64,000 nucleotides of DNA from Bradyrhizobium guangdongense (GTDB lineage Bacteria; Pseudomonadota; Alphaproteobacteria; Rhizobiales; Xanthobacteraceae), in the NCBI RefSeq assembly GCF_004114975.1, contig NZ_CP030051.1, positions 124,001 to 188,000 of the forward strand. The letters run 5' to 3'. This document shows, one piece after another, positions 3,213 through 14,890 of the stretch (its first letter is position 1; every line of letters starts with the position of its first letter). A program made the position numbers and the translations under genes. A model generated the notes under the pieces. It ran no database searches. It was not told the DNA's origin and saw nothing but the letters and a program-made list of their open reading frames with translations.

Positions 3213-4538
3213 TCAGATCGCCGCCAGCATGATGCAGACCATCGCCGCCACGGTTAGGCGGCTGGCGCCGTCCCGGAAGGCATACAGAATCGGATCGTCG
3301 GGCATCTCGCGGCGATGCGCGATCATCAGGGCGCGGCCGAACCAGTAGAGCAGCAAAGGCGCGAGCAGCCACAGCATCCAGGGCCGGCTGTAGAGCGGCG
3401 TCACCGCGGAGGAGGAGACGTAGAGCGTAAATACCGTCACCGCGTTCATGGCGCTCGCGGCCGCCATCGCGGCGATGATGTTGAGGTCGGTGATGCGATA
3501 GTCGCGGTTGGAGGGATCGGCGAGGCCCTCGCCCTGGCGCATGCTGAGCTCGCTGAAACGCTTGATCAGCGCCAGCGAAGTGAACACGAACAACGAGAAC
3601 ACCATCAGCCATTCCGACAGCACGACGCCGGCCGCGACCGCGCCGGCGACGATGCGCAAGGAATAGAGCCCGGCGAGCGTGACGACGTCGACCAGCATCT
3701 TGCGCTTGAGCACGAGCGAATAGGCGATGGTGGTGGCGAGATAGGCGGCGAGCACGCCGAGGAAGCTGGCCGAGATGCAGAGGCTGGCGACGAGCGCAAA
3801 GCCCCACAGCACGGGGATCGCCGAGAGCGCCGAGGAGATCTTGAGATCGCCGGCCGCGAGCGCGCGATGACGCTTGGTCGGATGCTGGCGATCGGCGGCG
3901 AGATCGAGCAGGTCGTTCATCAGATAGGCGCCGGACGCACAGGCCGAGAACGCCAGGAACGCCAGCAGCGTCGTGCCGAGCGTGGCAAGATTGATCTGAT
4001 GCGCGGTGATGACGGGCACGAACAGCAGCGTGTTCTTGGCGTATTGATAGACCCGCAGCGCTTTCGCCCAGGTCTTCAAACTTGCGCGGCCGCGGCTGAC
4101 ATGATCGATGCGATCGACGGCAGTACGGTCGAACGGCAGATGATCGCCGGCGGCGAGATCGGAGGGCGTGACGACGCCGTCGAAGCCGAGATGCGCGGCG
4201 ATGCCGGCCGCATGAGAGGCAAAGCGGTCCGCGACCAGATAGATCTTCGCGCCGCGCGCCCGCGCCGCCAGCGCCTGGTTCAACACGCCGGCATCGTAGG
4301 GCAGGTGGGCATAGTCGAGCTCGGCGCGCGCCAGGATCTCGGTGAGTGCCGCCATCCCGGCGCGGCCGCCCGCGCCGAAGCGGGCGAGCATGCGGGCAGG
4401 GCTTGAGAACAGCGCTTCCATCAGCAGCTCGGAGCGCAGCAGCGCGCCTTCGAGATCGATCACGAGCGTGCGAGCCTGCGCCGGCGCAGCCTGCGGCGCG
4501 GGCTCGCTGCGATCGTACTGCCTGACGGGCTGCTCCAT
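3213..4538 (-). CDS. UbiA-family prenyltransferase with degenerate HAD domain (decaprenyl-phosphate phosphoribosyltransferase-like)
   Basis: Likely transfers phosphoribose from PRPP to a polyprenyl phosphate, as mycobacterial Rv3806c does and as proposed for Azorhizobium NoeC. The C-terminal two thirds form a polytopic membrane domain with the UbiA motif NDLLDLAADRQHPTK and a second aspartate motif near LKRKMLVDVV. The N-terminal roughly 130 residues resemble a HAD phosphatase, but the catalytic motif reads DLEGA instead of DxDGT and the later HAD motifs appear lost. The DprE1/DprE2-like partners lie at 12818-14890, across the genomic island. The ATG at 4538 was chosen; an upstream TTG at 4574 is possible. 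Confidence 0.8.
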   Translation of the reverse strand: MEQPVRQYDRSEPAPQAAPAQARTLVIDLEGALLRSELLMEALFSSPARMLARFGAGGRAGMAALTEILARAELDYAHLPYDAGVLNQALAARARGAKIYLVADRFASHAAGIAAHLGFDGVVTPSDLAAGDHLPFDRTAVDRIDHVSRGRASLKTWAKALRVYQYAKNTLLFVPVITAHQINLATLGTTLLAFLAFSACASGAYLMNDLLDLAADRQHPTKRHRALAAGDLKISSALSAIPVLWGFALVASLCISASFLGVLAAYLATTIAYSLVLKRKMLVDVVTLAGLYSLRIVAGAVAAGVVLSEWLMVFSLFVFTSLALIKRFSELSMRQGEGLADPSNRDYRITDLNIIAAMAAASAMNAVTVFTLYVSSSAVTPLYSRPWMLWLLAPLLLYWFGRALMIAHRREMPDDPILYAFRDGASRLTVAAMVCIMLAAI

Positions 4539-4791
4539 CCGAAAACGCTCTGACTGACCTCGGCACGGCCGCAAACGGGCTGGGAGGCGGGAAAAGGACG
4601 GCCGCGAGCCTAGGCGGCATTGGCTAAGGCCGGCTTAATCCGGCCGCAAACGGGCACGATCACCGAGCTGTTGCACGGATCACACAATCCGGCGCGGTCG
4701 CGATATACCAGCGGAACTTGATGCACGCCGCGATGGAAATCGCCCACGCCGACCCTATCTGAGGCCAGCTTCCTATCACGCCTCAGGTGCC

Positions 4792-6176: not shown

Positions 6177-6196
6177 ATGGTGCCCAGGAAAGGACT
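6177..6196. other. attL-type direct repeat (copy of tRNA-Leu 3' end)
   Basis: The sequence atggtgcccaggaaaggact matches 11556-11575 exactly over 20 bases, and the flanking bases differ on both sides. It copies the CCA end, acceptor arm and part of the T arm of tRNA-Leu(CAG), on the same strand. This is what site-specific integration at a tRNA 3' end leaves at the distal boundary. Confidence 0.88.
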
Positions 6197-6256
6197 GGGT
6201 CGCCACCACTGAAATAGCCCTATTTTCTAGGGGATTCGAGCCTACCGGCTGGGTCA

Positions 6257-6279
6257 TGTGTACCGGTGTTGTGTACCGG
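6257..6279. repeat. left-end paired direct repeat (TGTGTACCGG x2, 13-bp period)
   Basis: The ten-base motif TGTGTACCGG occurs at 6257-6266 and again at 6270-6279, a start-to-start spacing of 13 bp. A second pair with the same TGTACC core and the same 13-bp spacing lies at the right end of the island (11472-11492). The match at both ends suggests arm-type sites for the integrase or an accessory protein. Confidence 0.6.
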
Positions 6280-6290
6280 AAACAAGCAGC

Positions 6291-7736
6291 TCAGTTCGAA
6301 CCGCCGAGGGTCACCTCCATCTGGTAACCCATGGCGTCGCGCTCCATCTGCCGTGCAAATTCCTCATCACGACGCCGCCGCTGGCCCGCCAGGGCCTTCC
6401 AGTGCGCCAGCTCCGCTTTGGCACCAGCGCCGTCGAGATACATGTTCATCGGAATGAAGGCGTCCTTGCGTCCGATCAGCTCACCAGTGTCCGCCTCGAC
6501 GATGTGGAGCTGGCCGTTGCCAAAATAATCCTGCTCGAACCGCCTGACTTCATGAACCCGCTCCGCTGAGTCAGCGCTGCCGGTGTCCCGCACCCCGATA
6601 TCCTTGAACACGTCGAAGACGATACGCTCCTGCCCGAAATCGAGCAAAAACCTGAACGTGACGTCCCCTTGAAGCGACTCGAAGTGCATCTGAACGAGGC
6701 TGCCCGAATGGCCCAGGCGTTTGCACCGCAGACCTTCGAGCGGGCCGTAGGCCCCCTTTCGGCGAATGCGCACGCTGATGTCCGGCACGTCCACGACGGG
6801 ATCACCGGAGAGCGGCTTACCTTCCTGCATGAACTTCACGATCTCAGGCCCCAAGATCTTCTTGAAGCCCGCCAGCTCGTAGAGGTGCTTCCTGAAGTTC
6901 GTACCCCGAGTTTCGACGCCAAAAACCTGCTCAATTGCCCTGATCGCGAGAGCCCGCACGATCGGAAGCTCAGACCCGAGCCGACGGAGATCGCCCGGGA
7001 TGTCAGGGTCAACGATCGGCTTCCGTGCGCCATGCGCCATGGCACATCGGCCAGATTTGAACAGGTGCGTACCGACCTCCTCGGCGGTCAAAAAGCCCTG
7101 CGCCTTGATACCGTCGATTGCCTCCTTGACCCCGAAGCCTTCAAGGTCGGCTATCGCGCCCGCGATCCAGGCAATGCGCTTCTCGTCGCGTGGGAAGGCG
7201 GTTTCGAGCACCTTGTAGAACGACAAGAATGCGTAGCCGACGTGGTTGAGGCTGCGCCCCTCCCGCATCAGCGCCAAGGCGAGCATCGCCTTCTCTGCGG
7301 TGACCTCGGGGAAGTAGGACAGGTCGAACTCGTCGCAAATCATGAAGCCGCGCTGCTTGTCGCGTCCCATGGGACTCGGGAGACTTCCGCCGCCAAGACC
7401 ACCGCCCTCGACCGCGTAACCCCGCTCCTCGACCCAGCTGAGCGTGGAGATGAAGCGCATCACCAGCTCCTCGCATTCGTGCCGGGCTTTGCCAGATGGG
7501 ACCATCATGGCGACGGCCGGGAAGAAGTCCTTCATCACCGGCATGATCCAGATGTCGACCCCGCGCCACCGCACCTTCTGCGCGACGATCGGCCAAGGAC
7601 TGGTGGTCGCGATGTTGGCGACGATCCACTCACCGCGCTGAGCCAGCTCGCCCTTGATGACGTCTCGGTGGTCCGAAATATCGCGCCGGAAGACCGAGTC
7701 TTCTTCGAGGTCCGAGATCTTTGCCGCTACATTCAT
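6291..7736 (-). CDS. uncharacterised HEPN-like protein, candidate defence RNase
   Basis: A 481-residue cytoplasmic protein I cannot assign to a named family. The centre (about residues 165-275) looks like an all-helical HEPN domain: a helix with LSFYKVLE near 171-178, then R230-CAMA-H235, which fits the Rx4-6H catalytic motif of HEPN RNases. No membrane span or signal peptide is visible. The C-terminal part is beta-rich and ends in a charged helix. It is the largest cargo gene of the island, starting about 100 bases from the left att copy, with the serine recombinase upstream on the same strand. A role in phage defence is inferred from the motif and location only. Confidence 0.55.
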   Translation of the reverse strand: MNVAAKISDLEEDSVFRRDISDHRDVIKGELAQRGEWIVANIATTSPWPIVAQKVRWRGVDIWIMPVMKDFFPAVAMMVPSGKARHECEELVMRFISTLSWVEERGYAVEGGGLGGGSLPSPMGRDKQRGFMICDEFDLSYFPEVTAEKAMLALALMREGRSLNHVGYAFLSFYKVLETAFPRDEKRIAWIAGAIADLEGFGVKEAIDGIKAQGFLTAEEVGTHLFKSGRCAMAHGARKPIVDPDIPGDLRRLGSELPIVRALAIRAIEQVFGVETRGTNFRKHLYELAGFKKILGPEIVKFMQEGKPLSGDPVVDVPDISVRIRRKGAYGPLEGLRCKRLGHSGSLVQMHFESLQGDVTFRFLLDFGQERIVFDVFKDIGVRDTGSADSAERVHEVRRFEQDYFGNGQLHIVEADTGELIGRKDAFIPMNMYLDGAGAKAELAHWKALAGQRRRRDEEFARQMERDAMGYQMEVTLGGSN

Positions 7737-7840
7737 CGTCGAGAACCCTTAGCTCTTCCTTTCGCCTGTCCTTGCCATTGAGAACGACTCCGGCAGGGAA
7801 TCGCGCCTGAGAGTCCCAGCATATAGCGCCTACCGAGAAA

Positions 7841-7858
7841 TCTACACCTAAATGTAGA
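7841..7858. promoter_or_regulatory. inverted repeat upstream of the HEPN-like gene
   Basis: TCTACA and TGTAGA form a 6-bp perfect inverted repeat separated by six A-rich bases. It lies between the recombinase stop (7900) and the HEPN-like start (7736), about 105 bases upstream of that start. It could be an operator for the cargo gene. The arms are too short and lack a T-tract, so it is not a convincing terminator. Confidence 0.35.
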
Positions 7859-7899
7859 GGCTCGCACCCTGTAGCCCGGGGGTGTTGCGGACCCTAAGG

Positions 7900-8604
7900 T
7901 CACAGCTCACCCAGCATCCTGGCGACGGCGGTGGCTGCGTAGGGCTTCCCGGATTCGCTGACGAACCCGGCATCGGCAAGTGCAGCAGAAATATCTCGCA
8001 ACGACCGTCGTCCTGCTTTAGGAGATCGCCGCCGCAGCTTCCGCGCCAGGGCAATCATCTGACCCCCGTGCTCGCGCTGATCCAGCTCTGCGTAGCTCTT
8101 GCGGCCTTCGACCTTCACGCCTGAGGCGCGCTTGCGGTCACGAGCGGCCTTCAACTTGGCGACCAGCCGTGCTTTTTCGAGTTGAGCAAACACGCCAGCG
8201 ATCTGCCGCATTGCGACCTTGAACGGATCTTCCGTGGCAGTGAGGTCGTCCCCGGTAGCGGTGAGCACCCGAACGCCACGCTCGATCAGCGCAATGATCC
8301 CCGCTTCCTGCACGATTAGCTGCCGGGCGAAGCGCGATGCGTCCTCGACGATGACCGTGCGCACGCCATTGCCCTCGATCCGATCCAAAAGCGCAGAGAA
8401 CCCCGGCCTGCTTTCGATGGGATCAGCACCGGAGACGTCGGCATCGTAGTACTCGGCGACGATCTCCCAGCGATCCCGCTTGGCGAACGCCTGGATGGAC
8501 TCCCGCTGACGCTTGTCGCTGTCCTTGTCCGCCCCGACGTTGGCCGCACTCGACGTCCTGAGGTAGGCAATAGCCTGTCGTGATTTCGCAGTTGTATCAG
8601 ACAC
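7900..8604 (-). CDS. serine recombinase (resolvase/invertase family)
   Basis: Site-specific DNA recombinase acting through a serine nucleophile. The N-terminal catalytic domain (about residues 10-150) shows YLRTSS, with S18 the likely nucleophile, plus the downstream motif EDASRFAR and the helix IAGVFAQLEKARLVAKLKAA. The C-terminal 80 residues contain a helix-turn-helix-like segment typical of the small resolvase group (SLRDISAALADAGF). At 234 residues it matches resolvases rather than large serine integrases. The start is a GTG at 8604. It is a second recombinase in an island that already has a tyrosine integrase, and may have served dimer resolution or an inversion. Confidence 0.85.
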   Translation of the reverse strand: MSDTTAKSRQAIAYLRTSSAANVGADKDSDKRQRESIQAFAKRDRWEIVAEYYDADVSGADPIESRPGFSALLDRIEGNGVRTVIVEDASRFARQLIVQEAGIIALIERGVRVLTATGDDLTATEDPFKVAMRQIAGVFAQLEKARLVAKLKAARDRKRASGVKVEGRKSYAELDQREHGGQMIALARKLRRRSPKAGRRSLRDISAALADAGFVSESGKPYAATAVARMLGEL

Positions 8605-8960
8605 TTGATTAGAATCTCTGTTTCGTAATCTTGAGAAATCGTAACAGACTGAAGGCTACGTTTCAACGAAGATCTAGAAGTCTGCATCCTGTGACTGCGG
8701 AATGTTGGAGATTTTAGTGAAGGACTTCTCGGAACGAACCGTGAGCAATGTTCTCTACATGTTCTCATCCATCAGTAGGCGCTGCCCTGTTTCAACCCCT
8801 AGGCCTGATTTGCGAGTGGCCTGATTTGGTCGCCTTCCCGAAATTGGGCTGGCTATCTGCCTGCTAAAGGCGCACACTCCTGCCATCACAGCCCGGACCG
8901 TGGCCTCTTTCTGTGATGAGATCGCACAGCGTTCCCGCCCTTTCGTTTTTGGGACCGCCC
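8605..8960. other. intergenic stretch within the island
   Basis: No convincing gene on either strand. It is visibly more A+T-rich than the neighbouring core genome near 8610-8760, where the promoter of the serine recombinase is expected. The only repeat noted is GGCCTGATTT at 8802-8811 and 8818-8827 (16-bp period). Confidence 0.4.
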
Positions 8961-9146
8961 ATGTGCAAAGATTGCAATCAGATCGACATTAGGATTCGAC
9001 AGCTACGCAGGGTGCAGGAGCCACCAGGTCTGGATGAGCTTAGCCACGCCATGATCCGAATGGCTATTGAGGCGCTAGAGACCGACAAGGCCGCCCTGAA
9101 GTGCGGCGGTATCCAGCGAGAAGGTAAGCTGCCCGATGGACCGTGA
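8961..9146 (+). CDS. small hypothetical protein with CxxC
   Basis: About 61 residues beginning MCKDCNQID, with an N-terminal CxxC pair and then a helical segment (ELSHAMIRMAIEALETDKAAL). I favour the ATG at 8961 over the upstream GTG at 8913 because the preceding residues look like non-coding sequence. The 3' end overlaps the next gene by 11 bases, suggesting translational coupling. Function unknown; a small nucleic-acid- or metal-binding cargo protein is possible. Confidence 0.45.
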   Translation: MCKDCNQIDIRIRQLRRVQEPPGLDELSHAMIRMAIEALETDKAALKCGGIQREGKLPDGP

Positions 9147-9351
9147 GATGCTTCAGAGGCATCTAGAGGAAGCCGATCGCCACGTTGCGCAAGGCGAACG
9201 CCATATTGCCGAGCAAGAGATTCGGATCGCGAACCTTGCTAGGCTAGGGCGAGATACGATCGAGGCCCGGAAGCTTCTGGACAACTTTTACGTCAGCCAG
9301 GTCCAGCACGTTCAGCACCGGGATCGGCTCAGCGAGCAACTAGCGCAGTAA
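9136..9351 (+). CDS. small helical hypothetical protein
   Basis: A 71-residue, highly charged and helical protein (EADRHVAQGERHIAEQE, then ARKLLDNFY) with coiled-coil character and no membrane segment. It overlaps the preceding CxxC protein by 11 bases and is presumably translated from the same message. Proteins of this look are common as uncharacterised small genes in Bradyrhizobium accessory DNA. No function can be assigned. Confidence 0.5.
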   Translation: MDREMLQRHLEEADRHVAQGERHIAEQEIRIANLARLGRDTIEARKLLDNFYVSQVQHVQHRDRLSEQLAQ

Positions 9352-9980
9352 GGCCGCCCCAGTTGGCGGCCTCTCACGTTTGGCCACGCGACGCACGTCG
9401 ATGCATCAACGAATCGGAAGGTAGGGCATTCGAACTGGAATTGGCTCTCAGCCGCGAGCGTGCCCGACCGCCGTCGGTGACTAGGGAAAAGCGGGACGAG
9501 ACATCCGTCGAGGGCTCGGGGCGTGGACTCCTCCGGGGTGATGTACCACCATCCAAGGTCTGATTTTTTTCTTGCATAGGCCCCCCACTCGGATGACCCA
9601 CTCCTACTTCGAACTCCCAAAAGACCCCTTTTCCGCGAACGACAACTTTCAAGAACTGGAGATGCAGTTCTTTGAGGTCGCCGAATGCGAAGACCTGCCA
9701 ATTTCTCGGGATTCTTCGACGGTAGGCGGCCCCGAGCTGCAACTGCGCCCGCAGGTTCTCCCTTCTATGGTTTCAGGCGCTCCTGGGGCGGAGCACCATT
9801 CTGGAGGGGTATCTCCGTCATCAGGAACACACCGGTACGCCAACTGGACGACCAAGACCAAGATCGGCCGCCGCAAGGTCACGAGGTGCCTCTCGCTGGC
9901 TCAGGTCAAAGACGCACAGTCCGCCTGGCATCACGCCAGAAGTATCGGCCAGCCCATGAATGTGAATGCTGATCGAAGAA
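9352..9980. other. gene-poor remnant region in the island
   Basis: No frame here has recognisable motifs or a good ribosome binding site. Open frames on both strands overlap each other and read as low-quality, Arg/Ser/Pro-rich peptides. The stretch directly abuts an IS21-like terminal sequence and a truncated integrase. I read it as decayed or foreign DNA that replaced the lost 3' end of the integrase gene. Confidence 0.4.
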
Positions 9981-10087
9981 TGACCCCCAATCGGCGTCAT
10001 GCTGACCCCACTAGGTCGTTGATTTTATTGAATTGCAACTATGAGACCCCGGCGCCGATCGACGTCGGGACCCCGCGCCGAAACACA
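9981..10087. mobile_element. IS21-like insertion-sequence end (remnant)
   Basis: The sequence carries iterated GACCCC blocks around AATCGGCGTCATG and GATCGACGTCGGGACC, and on the minus strand opens with TG (TGTGTTTCGG) exactly where integrase similarity stops. Iterated GGGGTCA/GACGCCGAT blocks near the tips are typical of IS21-family elements in Rhizobiales. No istA or istB coding sequence is present, so only an end survives. Family assignment is by pattern memory and moderately uncertain. Confidence 0.4.
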
Positions 10088-11471
10088 CGTTGACCTTATT
10101 CCGCGCTGTCTTCACCGCCCTGCGAACGCCAAGATCCCCGGCTTTGGGATCGATGAATAAATAGCCTCTTGAGGACCTCTCATAAAATTCTGGAAAACCT
10201 TCCTCGATGATTTGCCGATGCAGCACTACGTCTCTGGCTTCGTCAGTCTTCACGGGGCCCGCCTCGGGCGTCACGTGCACGACCCAATTTTTACCTTCAC
10301 GGCGAATGTCCTCTTTGCGAAGCTGAAGCATCTCGCCTACCCGCGCTCCCGTGAAGGCACACAACCACGGCACCCACCGTTTGGCCAACGCCAGCTTCGG
10401 AGCAACCCTCCCAGCAACAGAATTCCGGGCGTGCTTGAGAATGGCGGATGCTTCTCGGTCGTAAAATCCCTTTGACCTAAGCTTGCGCGATTTGCCGACC
10501 TTGATGGTAAGTCCTTCGGCAGGGTTGGAGTGCATGCGGCGGTTCATGACTGCCCAGCCAAACACCGTCTTTAGGCCGGCTAAGTCACTGTCCTTCACGG
10601 TCTTAGCACTCGCGCCGCCTAGCAGCCGGTGATCCTTGAAGCGGACTATGTCCTCCGGCGTTACGCGGCCCGCCTCGTCATGCTTCAGGAAGGCCACGAG
10701 CTTCATCATCGTTTTCTCATAGCTCTCATAGGTACTCTGCTTGCGACCGGCGGCCTTCGCCTCCTTCCACCAATCCTCGACCAATGCCGATAGCGAGCCG
10801 TTCGAGGCGCCAGGCTCTAAGGCTGCCTTTCCTCGTTCTGCCGCAGCGTTCCTTTGCGGGAATGGAATTGCTTGGGAATCGGGCGAGTAGTCGCCTTCAC
10901 CTCTTGCCAATTTGGCCAAAAGTACGCTGGCACGCTGCATGGCCGCACCGAGCGCGCGGGCCATGGTTCGGCGGTTGTCAAAATTAATAAAGATCCCGTT
11001 GGCCGTCAGATAGCCGTCAGCAGCATCCAAACACGCCTGTTCCATCCGGAAAATCTTGTCCTCCGGCAATTCCGGAGCGCCATCCAACGCTCGCTGAGAC
11101 GCAGCAAGTCTGTGCTCGCTCGTCTGCGGGGGGCCAAACAGCCGATCTCCGGCCACGACATCCCAGCCGGTCTGTTGGCTTGGATTATCCCTGTACATCT
11201 GCAGCCACTGATCGTAGGCGGCCAGGGCAAGTTGATGCGCCTCGCGTTCAGTCAGCAGTTTTGGCCCTGCGCGCAGGTTGGCCCAGCGGGCCTCGAGCTC
11301 GGCAAGTGCCTTCGCGAAGCGCTGTTTGGCCTCGCCCGGATCGCGGGTCTGAAGGCTTACCTTCTCCTCGCGCTTGCCGACGATCTTGCGCAAATCGTCC
11401 GGGACAGCCTTTCGGAGCTGATAGATTCCAGTTTTGGGATGCTTCCACGGACGCGACATAGCCAACGGCAT
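10011..11471 (-). pseudogene. tyrosine-type integrase truncated before its catalytic C-terminus
   Basis: This was the island's integrase: an N-terminal DNA-binding region (RPWKHPKTGIYQLRKAVP), a SAM-like core-binding domain near residues 220-310, then the start of the catalytic domain with TGARVGE (first catalytic Arg) and a Lys-containing turn near VKTDEARDVVL. After ARNKVN the frame passes into an unrelated Arg/Ser tail. The HxxR, His/Trp and Tyr positions are absent. The switch falls at about 10087, the tip of an IS21-like end. Recombination activity is therefore very unlikely. The ATG at 11471 has AAGGG upstream; 11459 is an alternative start. Confidence 0.75.
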
Positions 11472-11492
11472 TGTACCACCCTTCTGTACCAC
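11472..11492. repeat. right-end paired direct repeat (TGTACCAC x2, 13-bp period)
   Basis: TGTACCAC occurs at 11472-11479 and 11485-11492, start-to-start spacing 13 bp, immediately upstream of the integrase start and enclosing its Shine-Dalgarno-like AAGGG. The core TGTACC and the spacing match the pair at the left end of the island. It may be an integrase arm site, an autoregulatory operator, or both. Confidence 0.6.
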
Positions 11493-11556
11493 TGAGGAGC
11501 GGGTAAGCCGTTGAATTTGCTAATTTGCTTTGGATTTCACGCTCTTAGAAGAGCGA

Positions 11557-11643
<87 letters not shown>

Positions 11644-12817: not shown

Positions 12818-13558
12818 TCAAAACTTCAGCTTCTTGAATACTGCCTCGGGCAGCGTCTTGATGACCAGCATCACGAGGCGCCATTTGCCGCTGACGTAGA
12901 CGACGTCCGTCTTGTTCTCGACGGCGCTGAGGATCGCATCGCCGACGACAGGGGCTTCGACGGTCAGCGGGCCGATCAGCTTCATGCCTTCGGTCATTTT
13001 CGTGCGGACGAAGCCGGGCTTCACGGTGACGACATGCACGCCGCCGCGGCTCGCGCGGGCGCGCAGGCCTGACAAGAAGGCGCTGAAGCCGGCTTTCGCC
13101 GAGCCGTAGACATAGTTCGAGGCGCGGCCGCGATCGCCGGCCACCGACGACACGCCGACGATTGTGCCACTGCCACGGTTCAGGAATTTTTCCGCGAACA
13201 GGCCGAGGATCAGCGAGGGGCCCTCGTAGTTCGAGCGCATGATCGTGGTGGCGTGCGCAAGATCGCTCTCGGCGGCTGGCTGCACACCGAGAAGGCCGAC
13301 GATCGAGATCACCACATCGGGCAGGGCGGGAAGGCCGGCGACAAAGCCCTCGAACGACGCGGTGTCGAGCACATCGAATGTGTGCGTGCTCGCTTCGATC
13401 GCATAGCGCGCGCGCAGATCGGCGGCGTCAGGCTCCAGCGCCGCGACGTCGCGGCCTGCGAGGCCGACGTCGTAACCCGCCTTGGCAAAGGCGCGCGCCG
13501 CGGCGCGGCCGATATCGGAGGAGCCGCCGAGCACCAGAACGGACTTGCGTGACGTCAC
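12818..13558 (-). CDS. SDR oxidoreductase, DprE2/NoeP-like
   Basis: Classical short-chain dehydrogenase: TGxxxGxG-type loop (LVLGGSSDIGRAAARAF), SIVG in place of NNAG, catalytic Ser in VGVSSVAG and a YGSAK (YxxxK) motif. Its stop-to-start neighbour, only three bases away, is a DprE1-like flavoenzyme. The pair matches DprE1/DprE2, which epimerise decaprenyl-phosphoryl-ribose to the arabinose form through a 2-keto intermediate; DprE2 is the NADH-dependent reductase. Azorhizobium NoeP (Nod-factor arabinosylation) is the rhizobial parallel. The role is inferred from context; the fold is certain. Confidence 0.78.
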   Translation of the reverse strand: MTSRKSVLVLGGSSDIGRAAARAFAKAGYDVGLAGRDVAALEPDAADLRARYAIEASTHTFDVLDTASFEGFVAGLPALPDVVISIVGLLGVQPAAESDLAHATTIMRSNYEGPSLILGLFAEKFLNRGSGTIVGVSSVAGDRGRASNYVYGSAKAGFSAFLSGLRARASRGGVHVVTVKPGFVRTKMTEGMKLIGPLTVEAPVVGDAILSAVENKTDVVYVSGKWRLVMLVIKTLPEAVFKKLKF

Positions 13559-13561
13559 GGC

Positions 13562-14890
13562 TTAGACCTCATCGAACAGGCGTTGTGAAAGTTTGGAGCG
13601 GATGTTCTTGGCGGGATCGAGCGCTTTTCGGATCGCGTTGAAGCGCGCCAGCGCGGGATAGCCGGCCTCGAAGGTGGCGCGCGACTGCCGCGCATCCTTG
13701 GCAAGATAGAGCCGGCCGCCCGCCGCGACGACCAGACGGTCGATCTCGTCGAGAAATTTCAAAATGTCGCCCTTCACAGGAAAGTCCAGGGCCAGCGTGT
13801 AGCCGGGCAGCGGAAACGACAGCAAGCCGTCGCCATGGCCGAGCTTCTTCAGCACCGCCAGGAACGACGCATCGCCGCGCGTCGAGGCGCGCTCGAGGAT
13901 TTCGCCGAGAACCTCGCGCGCGCGGACTTCCGGAATCACGCATTGATGCTGCAGGAAGCCGCGCCGCCCGTAGATGCGATTCCAGTCGGCGATGCTGTCG
14001 AGCGGAAAGAAATACGGATAGAGCGAGACCACATGATCGCCGCCGGCGCGCCGCGCACCCATGCGGTAATAGATCTCGTTGAAGGCGCGGATGCTATGGC
14101 GGTTCAGCGTCATCGACGGCAGGTCGATCGGGACAGCGAGCCCGGGATTCCTGCCGACGGGGAATCGATCGGCGCCTCGGCCAAGCTCATCCGCGCTTGC
14201 GTGCTCGCCGAGATAGATCAGCGATCGGCCGAGATCGCGACTGCGCGCCGCGCAATCGATCCATGCCACCGAATAGGTTGCGGAGTCACTTGCCTCGAGC
14301 GCGCGCATCGCGGCGTCGAGGTCGGACGCGGAAATCACCCGCTCGCGGATCCAGCCGGTTTCCACGGAGCGCAACCGCATCGTCGCCTCCAGGATCACGC
14401 CGGTGAGGCCCATGCCGCCGATGGTCGCGAGGAAGGCATCGGAATTCTGCTCGCGCGAGACTTCGATGGTCTCGCCCGCGCCTGATCGCAGCAGGATGCT
14501 CTCGACATAGCGGCCAAAGCCGCCCTCGCCGTGATGGTTCTTGCCATGCACGTCGGCGGCAATGGCGCCGCCGATCGAGACGAAGCGCGTGCCCGGCACC
14601 ACGAAGGGCAAAAAGCCGCGCGGGCCGAAAGTGTCGATCAGGTCGGACAGCAGCACGCCGGCCTCAAGGCGGATGCGCCCCGTCGCTGGATCGAACGACC
14701 TGATCCGGTCGAACGCGGTCATGGCGATGGTCCTGGCAGCGCCGATCGCGGCATCGCCATAGGCGCGGCCATTGCCGCGGGCCACCGAGCCGGCGACGAC
14801 AGCCTCCGCCACGCCCTCGAACGATCGCGGCCGCAGCATTTCGCTATCGACGACCGGGAAGCGCCCCCAGCCGCTGACTGTCGTCATCAT
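13562..14890 (-). CDS. FAD-linked oxidase, DprE1/NoeO-like
   Basis: VAO-type flavoprotein of 442 residues, similar to DprE1, which oxidises the ribose 2'-hydroxyl of decaprenyl-phosphoryl-ribose. The N-terminus holds the PP-loop (ARGNGRAYGDAAIG) and the second FAD stretch (FVVPGTRFVSIGGAIAADVHGKNHH). The C-terminal part resembles arabinono-lactone oxidases (GYTLALDFPVKGD...). The gene is followed after three bases by the DprE2-like SDR, so they form an operon, and uppP lies upstream on the same strand. With the UbiA protein at 3213-4538 this gives three of the four expected steps. Alternative: a generic sugar-lactone oxidase. Confidence 0.78.
   Translation of the reverse strand: MMTTVSGWGRFPVVDSEMLRPRSFEGVAEAVVAGSVARGNGRAYGDAAIGAARTIAMTAFDRIRSFDPATGRIRLEAGVLLSDLIDTFGPRGFLPFVVPGTRFVSIGGAIAADVHGKNHHGEGGFGRYVESILLRSGAGETIEVSREQNSDAFLATIGGMGLTGVILEATMRLRSVETGWIRERVISASDLDAAMRALEASDSATYSVAWIDCAARSRDLGRSLIYLGEHASADELGRGADRFPVGRNPGLAVPIDLPSMTLNRHSIRAFNEIYYRMGARRAGGDHVVSLYPYFFPLDSIADWNRIYGRRGFLQHQCVIPEVRAREVLGEILERASTRGDASFLAVLKKLGHGDGLLSFPLPGYTLALDFPVKGDILKFLDEIDRLVVAAGGRLYLAKDARQSRATFEAGYPALARFNAIRKALDPAKNIRSKLSQRLFDEV

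Follow-up and report, generated by a model that had tools for sequence, protein, structure and literature searches.

Within a 64,000-bp stretch of the Bradyrhizobium guangdongense genome (contig NZ_CP030051.1, positions 124,001 to 188,000; the whole stretch is called the window here), a 5,379-bp element lies between two exact copies of a 20-bp repeat, one of which belongs to the 3′ end of a tRNA-Leu(CAG) gene. This is a genuine insertion, and the evidence for the island, which is of an ordinary kind, is good. The protein that forms its main cargo is a member of the Pfam family MauJ (PF17419), a family annotated for methylamine utilization. In the overall reading proposed here, to which a probability of roughly 70% is assigned, the element is a tRNA-Leu(CAG) island with exchangeable cargo that is probably stranded, and MauJ is probably a HEPN ribonuclease, likely acting in an abortive-type defence. 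If this is true, a family named for a metabolic pathway would be a mobile ribonuclease, its genome annotations would name a wrong function, and a candidate for phage defence would have been overlooked. Part of the interest lies in the cargo, whose family has HEPN features, is carried about on tRNA islands and probably bears the wrong name. The other part lies in the tRNA-Leu(CAG) site, where related backbones share one address and a slot that holds a HEPN-like protein, mercury-resistance-like genes or a surface-modifying enzyme. Because cargo differs within one slot, cargo exchange in very small islands becomes directly testable.

The insertion at tRNA-Leu(CAG)

The left copy of the repeat occupies positions 6177 to 6196 and the right copy positions 11556 to 11575, the latter consisting of the 3′ end of the tRNA gene plus one base outside it. 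The best other match to the repeat in the window extends over 8 bases, counted from the repeat's first base, and a naive estimate gives a chance of about 5e-9 for an exact 20-mer within 5.5 kb. From left to right, the element and its target contain the MauJ-family gene (−), a small serine recombinase gene (−), two small overlapping open reading frames (ORFs; +), a truncated ORF (+), a tyrosine integrase gene (−) and the tRNA gene (−). A first-pass annotation of this DNA had claimed a 20-bp direct repeat at both ends, with one copy being the tRNA-Leu(CAG) 3′ end, together with a tRNA-proximal integrase, a serine recombinase, a HEPN-like protein and two small overlapping genes; both repeat coordinates are exact and all of these genes are present. 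The features are as follows.

6177–6196, attL, the left 20-bp core; exact repeat of 11556–11575, its left flank running into the tRNA in the related genome G009
6257–6279, a pair of TGTGTACCGG direct repeats on the inner side of attL, candidate arm sites of the integrase, read by eye; same pair in G210
6291–7736 (−), MauJ-family protein (PF17419), 481 amino acids, main cargo; predicted HEPN domain at about residues 145–270, Rx4H motif R230–H235
7900–8604 (−), small serine recombinase (PF00239), 234 amino acids, stopping 164 bp before the mauJ start on the same strand; relatives in G210, G142 and, in pieces, G006
8961–9146 (+), small ORF of 61 amino acids; a relative search returned the window's own protein alone
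9136–9351 (+), small ORF of 71 amino acids, conserved hypothetical, overlapping the previous ORF by 11 bases; 31 proteins listed including its own, the others 50–83% identical
9593–9961 (+), truncated N-terminal part (123 residues) of a 309-amino acid protein; 56% over residues 1–123 by tblastn against G210
9962–10094, putative junction of an internal deletion, where both convergent genes lose similarity
10011–11492 (−), tyrosine integrase with DUF6538 and part of Phage_integrase; apparently a mosaic, with the C-terminal HxxR and tyrosine part missing
11472–11492, a pair of TGTACCAC repeats close to the right end, likewise candidate arm sites but unlike the left ones, read by eye
11556–11575, attR, the right 20-bp core, starting one base outside the tRNA 3′ end; placed by exact repeat and tRNA position
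11557–11643 (−), tRNA-Leu(CAG), the target gene (ARAGORN)

The tRNA gene and the gene downstream of it, used together as a DNA query, matched all 60 genomes searched: the genome of the window itself, 35 others of its genus and 24 of its order, where the matches are mostly weaker or split. Thirty of the 35 same-genus loci were scanned with the flanking proteins (G013, G016, G020, G033 and G035 were left out), two of them being short stretches of 3.8 and 2.4 kb. The gene of the major facilitator superfamily (MFS) that precedes the island was located in 18 of these 30 loci. In six of the 18, the gap between the MFS gene and the tRNA is shorter than 300 bp (G009, 122; G015, 112; G004, 157; G032, 122; G012, 174, measured to MFS residue 401 of 423; G021, 272), while it ranges from 0.7 to 15.5 kb in the other 12; excision of the window element would leave a gap of 113 bp. 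The G009 locus matches the left flank of the window at 82% over 96 bp, including the core, and then continues directly into the tRNA. The tRNA-Leu(CAG) site is therefore empty or nearly so in several relatives, which is the empty site in related Bradyrhizobium genomes that the first-pass annotation had proposed to look for. At the same G009 locus (L045), a serine recombinase copy and a left-end-like stretch lie about 9–11 kb before the empty tRNA-Leu(CAG) site, near but not at it.

The site is also an insertion hotspot. Core repeats are found at the far end of other insertions here, in G005 (14,361 bp) and G007 (8,318 bp), with a 17-base repeat in each, and further insertions at the same tRNA occur in G006 (1,963 bp, 19-base repeat) and G022 (3,080 bp, imperfect repeat, 17/20). 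The G005 island carries, among others, an SMC-like ATPase and a DUF4411 protein with an XRE/M78 protein. The idea that the repeats merely flank ordinary chromosomal genes that were never inserted retains virtually no probability: it is refuted by the empty sites, and it is further at odds with the sister islands that have repeats at the same tRNA and with an island GC content of 59.3%, compared to about 65% in the flanks (65.4% and 64.7%), while nothing was found in its favour. As DNA, the island matches 18 plasmid records, and the matched pieces cover 3–9% in the 10 listed.

In the proposed mechanism, a small integrative element entered the 3′ end of tRNA-Leu(CAG) via tyrosine-integrase recombination. 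As the sequence shows, integration restored the tRNA and left the 20-bp core at each end as attL and attR.

Shared backbone and state of the element

A genus-wide search with the window serine recombinase was positive in 177 of 265 genomes, and G210 has the closest relative (79%). The G210 island extends over 9,943 bp from attL to the tRNA and contains, in this order, attL, MerR-, MerT-, HMA-domain- and MerA-like genes, the recombinase, an M78 peptidase-like gene, the 309-amino acid protein and a 583-amino acid integrase. A complete tyrosine integrase contains the residue set R, K, HxxR, H and Y, and by eye this catalytic set looks complete in the G210 enzyme. The MerA-like reductase stays below the NCBIfam MerA cut-off (299.7 versus 454.45 bits), so 'mercury resistance' is a likely label for the G210 cargo but not a proven one. 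The G142 island, of about 6.1 kb, follows the same plan, and its cargo slot is occupied by an O-antigen acetylase-like gene, while the 1,963-bp insertion in G006 is a remnant with a recombinase in pieces, unassigned cargo and no recognised integrase.

The attL end with its TGTGTACCGG-type pair is common to the window and G210; G142, G006 and G022 have a variant form of this end, with TGTGTACCG-type pairs in which some copies are altered (read by eye). Near the right end of the G210 and G142 islands, one TGTGTACCGG-type copy and one variant are visible by eye. No match to the serine recombinase was obtained for G022 in the genus search. The 309-amino acid protein is matched in eight of the 265 genus genomes, counting the truncated copy of the window, and searches of Pfam, PHROGs, NCBIfam and PDB sequences with its complete relative gave no match. 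An H-x-H stretch, reminiscent of the HUH motif, led to its consideration as an HUH-type replication protein, but this assignment was rejected for lack of library support and the protein is left unassigned. The protein shared by these islands is located at L148:12137-13066.

The G210 and G142 islands thus resemble the window element in their attL end, in a related serine recombinase, in the 309-amino acid protein (truncated in the window) and in gene order, but they differ in their cargo, which consists of mer-like genes or an acetyltransferase, and in their integrase, which is only about 28% identical to that of the window. As judged from these sequence comparisons, the window element is one of a Bradyrhizobium group that shares the attL end and the serine recombinase and has exchangeable cargo between the two. 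The simplest idea for how cargo is swapped would be homologous recombination between elements at the same site.

The two genes that converge in the right half of the window element are both truncated. Only the first 123 residues encoded by the ORF at 9593–10093 (+) match the 309-amino acid G210 protein by blastp. The integrase scores above the cut-off for DUF6538, but its match to Phage_integrase is restricted to positions 8–100 of 172 and falls under the cut-off. Its similarity to the G005 and G007 integrases stops at about residue 466, with no convincing similarity thereafter. The alignment shows no HxxR and tyrosine part, nor was this part found in the neighbouring 3.1 kb. Residues 8–200 match at 67% an integrase beside a tRNA-Phe gene elsewhere in the same genome, while residues 206–466 match the G001/G005/G007 type at 76–77%; by these alignments, the enzyme is a mosaic of different integrases. 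Since the integrase gene and the gene of the 309-amino acid protein converge, a single deletion around 9962–10094 that removed the ends of both would be the simplest account.

The element displays direct repeats with a tRNA 3′ end and an empty site in relatives, as a tRNA-site island does, but its integrase is incomplete. As the C-terminal catalytic part is gone, the element is probably stranded and is classed as a remnant instead of a mobile island. It probably cannot move by itself, which agrees with its earlier description as a degenerate carrier.

The MauJ-family protein and its HEPN-like domain

The 481-amino acid protein matches the Pfam family MauJ with 89.1 bits against a cut-off of 28 and is thus a member of this family. 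Its Rx4H motif is present in 80 of 80 aligned sequences and in 21 of 21 divergent ones. In the predicted models (mfe6095a042a0 and med06502fb1cc), the third core helix ends with the motif, within a domain that consists of helices H4–18, H22–36, an insert (H40–51 and H57–68), H74–87 and H103–126 (domain numbering). HEPN domains are built from a pair of helical hairpins, in which helices 2 and 3 are often separated by an insert, and have an acidic residue in helix 2 in many families, as described in excerpts of PMC3710099. The predicted model shows this two-hairpin layout including the insert, and the positions of the motif's R and H agree with the active-site placement given in the same excerpts. 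The acidic residue corresponds to E34 of the domain (E178 of the protein, within H22–36), which is E in all 21 divergent sequences and in 78 of the 80 aligned ones, with D in the remaining two. A feature that MauJ lacks is the polar residue after the motif's R: this position is mostly C, but also Q, M, H, I, V or N, whereas a polar residue (mostly N, D or H) is typical of HEPN, although not required (PMC3710099, in excerpt).

A structure search with the whole protein gave no useful match, with scattered and weak similarity to flavin enzymes at about residues 10–119 and to long helices at 385–470, and the middle domain was therefore searched alone. After structural re-alignment of this domain, the ten best rows are HEPN structures with modest scores, a tentative similarity to solved HEPN domains. 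Nothing convincing matched the N-terminal and C-terminal parts in the structure searches. BFVD contained nothing at E ≤ 0.001, a search of PDB sequences returned only weak hemerythrin rows (E 0.11 and above), and there was no match in phage records and four weak ones in plasmids (27–38% identity). PADLOC 2023 provided no model match at E ≤ 1 for six island proteins. In its predicted form, the middle domain thus has most of the features of HEPN, and the earlier designation of the protein as the HEPN-like main cargo holds at the level of motif and predicted fold. MauJ-type proteins are probably single-gene HEPN ribonucleases.

The distribution of the family is patchy. Relatives occur in 16 of 264 other genomes of the genus, with about 50% identity only in G268 (54%) and G278 (49%), and class-wide in 4 of 384 other genomes, three of them above the cut-off. 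Among the records, the nearest relatives are P0001 (97%), P0002 (87%) and P0003 (86%). MauJ is seen on tRNA islands in Alpha- and Betaproteobacteria, and relatives are also present in Arcobacter, Xanthomonas and Bryobacterales. Besides the window, 36 distinct loci were considered, of which 20 come from named genomes, one is a contig of a viral collection and 15 are further Bradyrhizobium loci. L099 was dropped from this count because its ORFs are those of L098, and L112 because its DNA is that of L078, while L082 and L084, which share 12.8 kb at 90% or more and have no tRNA, were both kept; four other class-wide matches, a second copy in G019 (L007, short flanks) and a 32-residue match in G287 with a stop stand outside it.

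A tRNA gene is present within the examined stretch (8–21 kb) in 11 of the 36 loci, compared to one of 20 control stretches located 100–400 kb away in Bradyrhizobium. MauJ lies on the 3′ side of the tRNA in all 11, as in the window (p = 0.0005 in a sign test chosen post hoc). Beyond MauJ, three of the 11 loci have a repeat of the tRNA end, of 17 bp in L113, 16 bp in L087 and 56 bp in L095; the other eight contain no repeat of at least 13 bases within the examined stretch. In L113 (Bradyrhizobium G278), an integrase, a PIN protein and a serine recombinase 121 bp upstream of MauJ are found at a tRNA-Ser gene, and L087 (Rhodobacter) has a serine recombinase and an integrase, with DUF6538 below its cut-off, at a tRNA-Asn gene. 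In L095 (Aquitalea), MauJ is the sole sizeable gene between a tRNA-Ser gene and the repeat, and there is no recombinase. At this locus (L095:9580-13564), islets stand in tandem, and a duplicated tRNA-Ser 3′ half with a terminator-like stretch bounds each of them; one islet contains MauJ alone and the next a gene that is ParA-like by eye, and no integrase was recognised. MauJ-type proteins look like recurrent cargo of tRNA-site islands. The first-pass annotation had suggested a search for the same cargo next to a complete integrase, and this was borne out in part: the integrases of L113 and L087 look complete, but they sit at other tRNA genes, with MauJ proteins only 49% and about 39% identical to that of the window.

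Some MauJ copies adjoin defence genes. L081 has MauJ near HmaA/HmaB; in L089, it has type I restriction genes nearby, a serine recombinase immediately upstream and a tRNA-Val 193 bp after the gene. PADLOC models matched seven of 20 hand-picked MauJ-neighbour proteins, two of them weakly (L094 and L091), and none of the other 13. In Arcobacter (L094:5537-15324), MauJ is flanked by two very large proteins, one matching PADLOC Aga_REase over about 100 residues (76.9 bits) and the other nuclease-like by eye. Besides MauJ itself, no family occurs in more than four of 22 neighbourhoods among the families listed, and a conserved toxin–antitoxin partner was rejected on this count. A fixed pair of serine recombinase and MauJ was likewise rejected. 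The recombinase is directly upstream in the window, L113 and L089, lies about 0.9 kb upstream in L087 and was not recognised directly upstream in the other loci listed; because, in addition, the window recombinase does not fall into one cluster with its L087 and L089 counterparts, the relationship is regarded as a loose association.

Function of the cargo and comparison with known systems

In the proposed reading, MauJ would be a HEPN ribonuclease in one polypeptide, with a middle domain that may cleave RNA through R230/H235 and flanking domains that may keep the ribonuclease inactive or sense a trigger. An abortive-type defence would be the most likely benefit, protecting the cell or the island from phages or other elements. 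Several abortive-infection proteins belong to HEPN, as stated in excerpts of PMC3710099, and protection by a single HEPN protein has been demonstrated for DS-11 (PMC13092281, in excerpt). Together with the two MauJ copies found among defence genes, this makes phage defence the most likely role, in which MauJ-type proteins perhaps serve. Told in full, however, the neighbour and repeat counts of the MauJ loci come out thinner, which slightly lowers the confidence in the proposed reading. A bolder version, which is conceivable but tentative, considers Pfam 'MauJ' as an unrecognised family of single-protein HEPN immune ribonucleases that serve as interchangeable tRNA-island cargo; the methylamine name would then be accidental, and the MauJ-only islet of Aquitalea would represent a minimal mobile form moved in trans.

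Alternatively, MauJ could be a HEPN ribonuclease that serves the element, e.g. in addiction, competitor exclusion or processing of element RNA, and not in phage defence. This is possible, although we consider it rather unlikely. MauJ seems to act alone, as indicated by the neighbour-family count, it is on the island side of the tRNA wherever a tRNA is present, and in the window, L113 and L089 it is closely preceded by a serine recombinase, all of which would suit an element function; yet no antitoxin-like partner is conserved, the mauJ of L095 is the sole sizeable gene between tRNA and repeat, without a recombinase, and the L081 and L089 copies adjoin defence genes. Less probable still is that the protein has only an HEPN-like bundle, with a structural motif and a role as scaffold or binding protein. 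The modest structural scores, which many helical bundles would reach alike, and the C after the motif's R are consistent with such a role, but R and H are invariant across divergent relatives and occupy the reviewed active-site position, and the second helix carries the acidic residue. That MauJ is an accessory protein of methylamine metabolism, and the island a carrier of metabolic cargo, is very improbable despite the family name and a match above the curated cut-off, since the invariant Rx4H and the HEPN-like fold are unexpected for such a protein. The methylamine dehydrogenase light chain (PF02975) is found in none of the 16 MauJ-bearing Bradyrhizobium genomes, a weak argument because all 14 controls were silent too, and no mau gene was recognised by eye in the neighbourhoods, though no search was aimed at mau genes there. 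An abortive-type defence by a HEPN ribonuclease is thus the preferred reading of the cargo.

The genes that flank the island resemble those of a decaprenyl-phospho-arabinose-type pathway. A UbiA-type prenyltransferase (3213–4574) exceeds its cut-off (435.7 versus 351 bits), while the matches of the DprE2-like (12818–13558; 192.1 versus 250 bits) and DprE1-like proteins (13562–14890; 414.6 versus 500 bits) are below the curated cut-offs. The proposal that the island separates the UbiA-type gene from its DprE-like partners stands only in part: the flanking proteins do resemble the pathway, but an MFS gene, the tRNA and an epimerase-like gene also intervene in the window. At the nearly empty site of G021, the UbiA gene, the MFS gene, the tRNA and the epimerase-like gene follow in the same order; the DprE genes were not sought in relatives.

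Compared to known systems, the protein is a direct match to the methylamine utilization protein MauJ of Pfam (PF17419) above the curated cut-off, but here it is island cargo, and the metabolic name fits neither its motif nor its context, even if the absence of mau genes is not proven by the PF02975 search with its silent controls. With respect to HEPN proteins of abortive infection, such as AbiV and AbiJ, the motif histidine is typically missing from AbiV, as described in excerpts of PMC3710099, whereas MauJ contains it; MauJ furthermore has extra N-terminal and C-terminal parts without a convincing match, and no sequence match in PADLOC. Unlike other small integrative islands at tRNA sites, the window element is only 5.4 kb long, has a truncated mosaic integrase and is probably not self-mobile, but it shares with them a core formed by the tRNA 3′ end, an integrase beside the tRNA, polymorphic cargo and empty sites in relatives.

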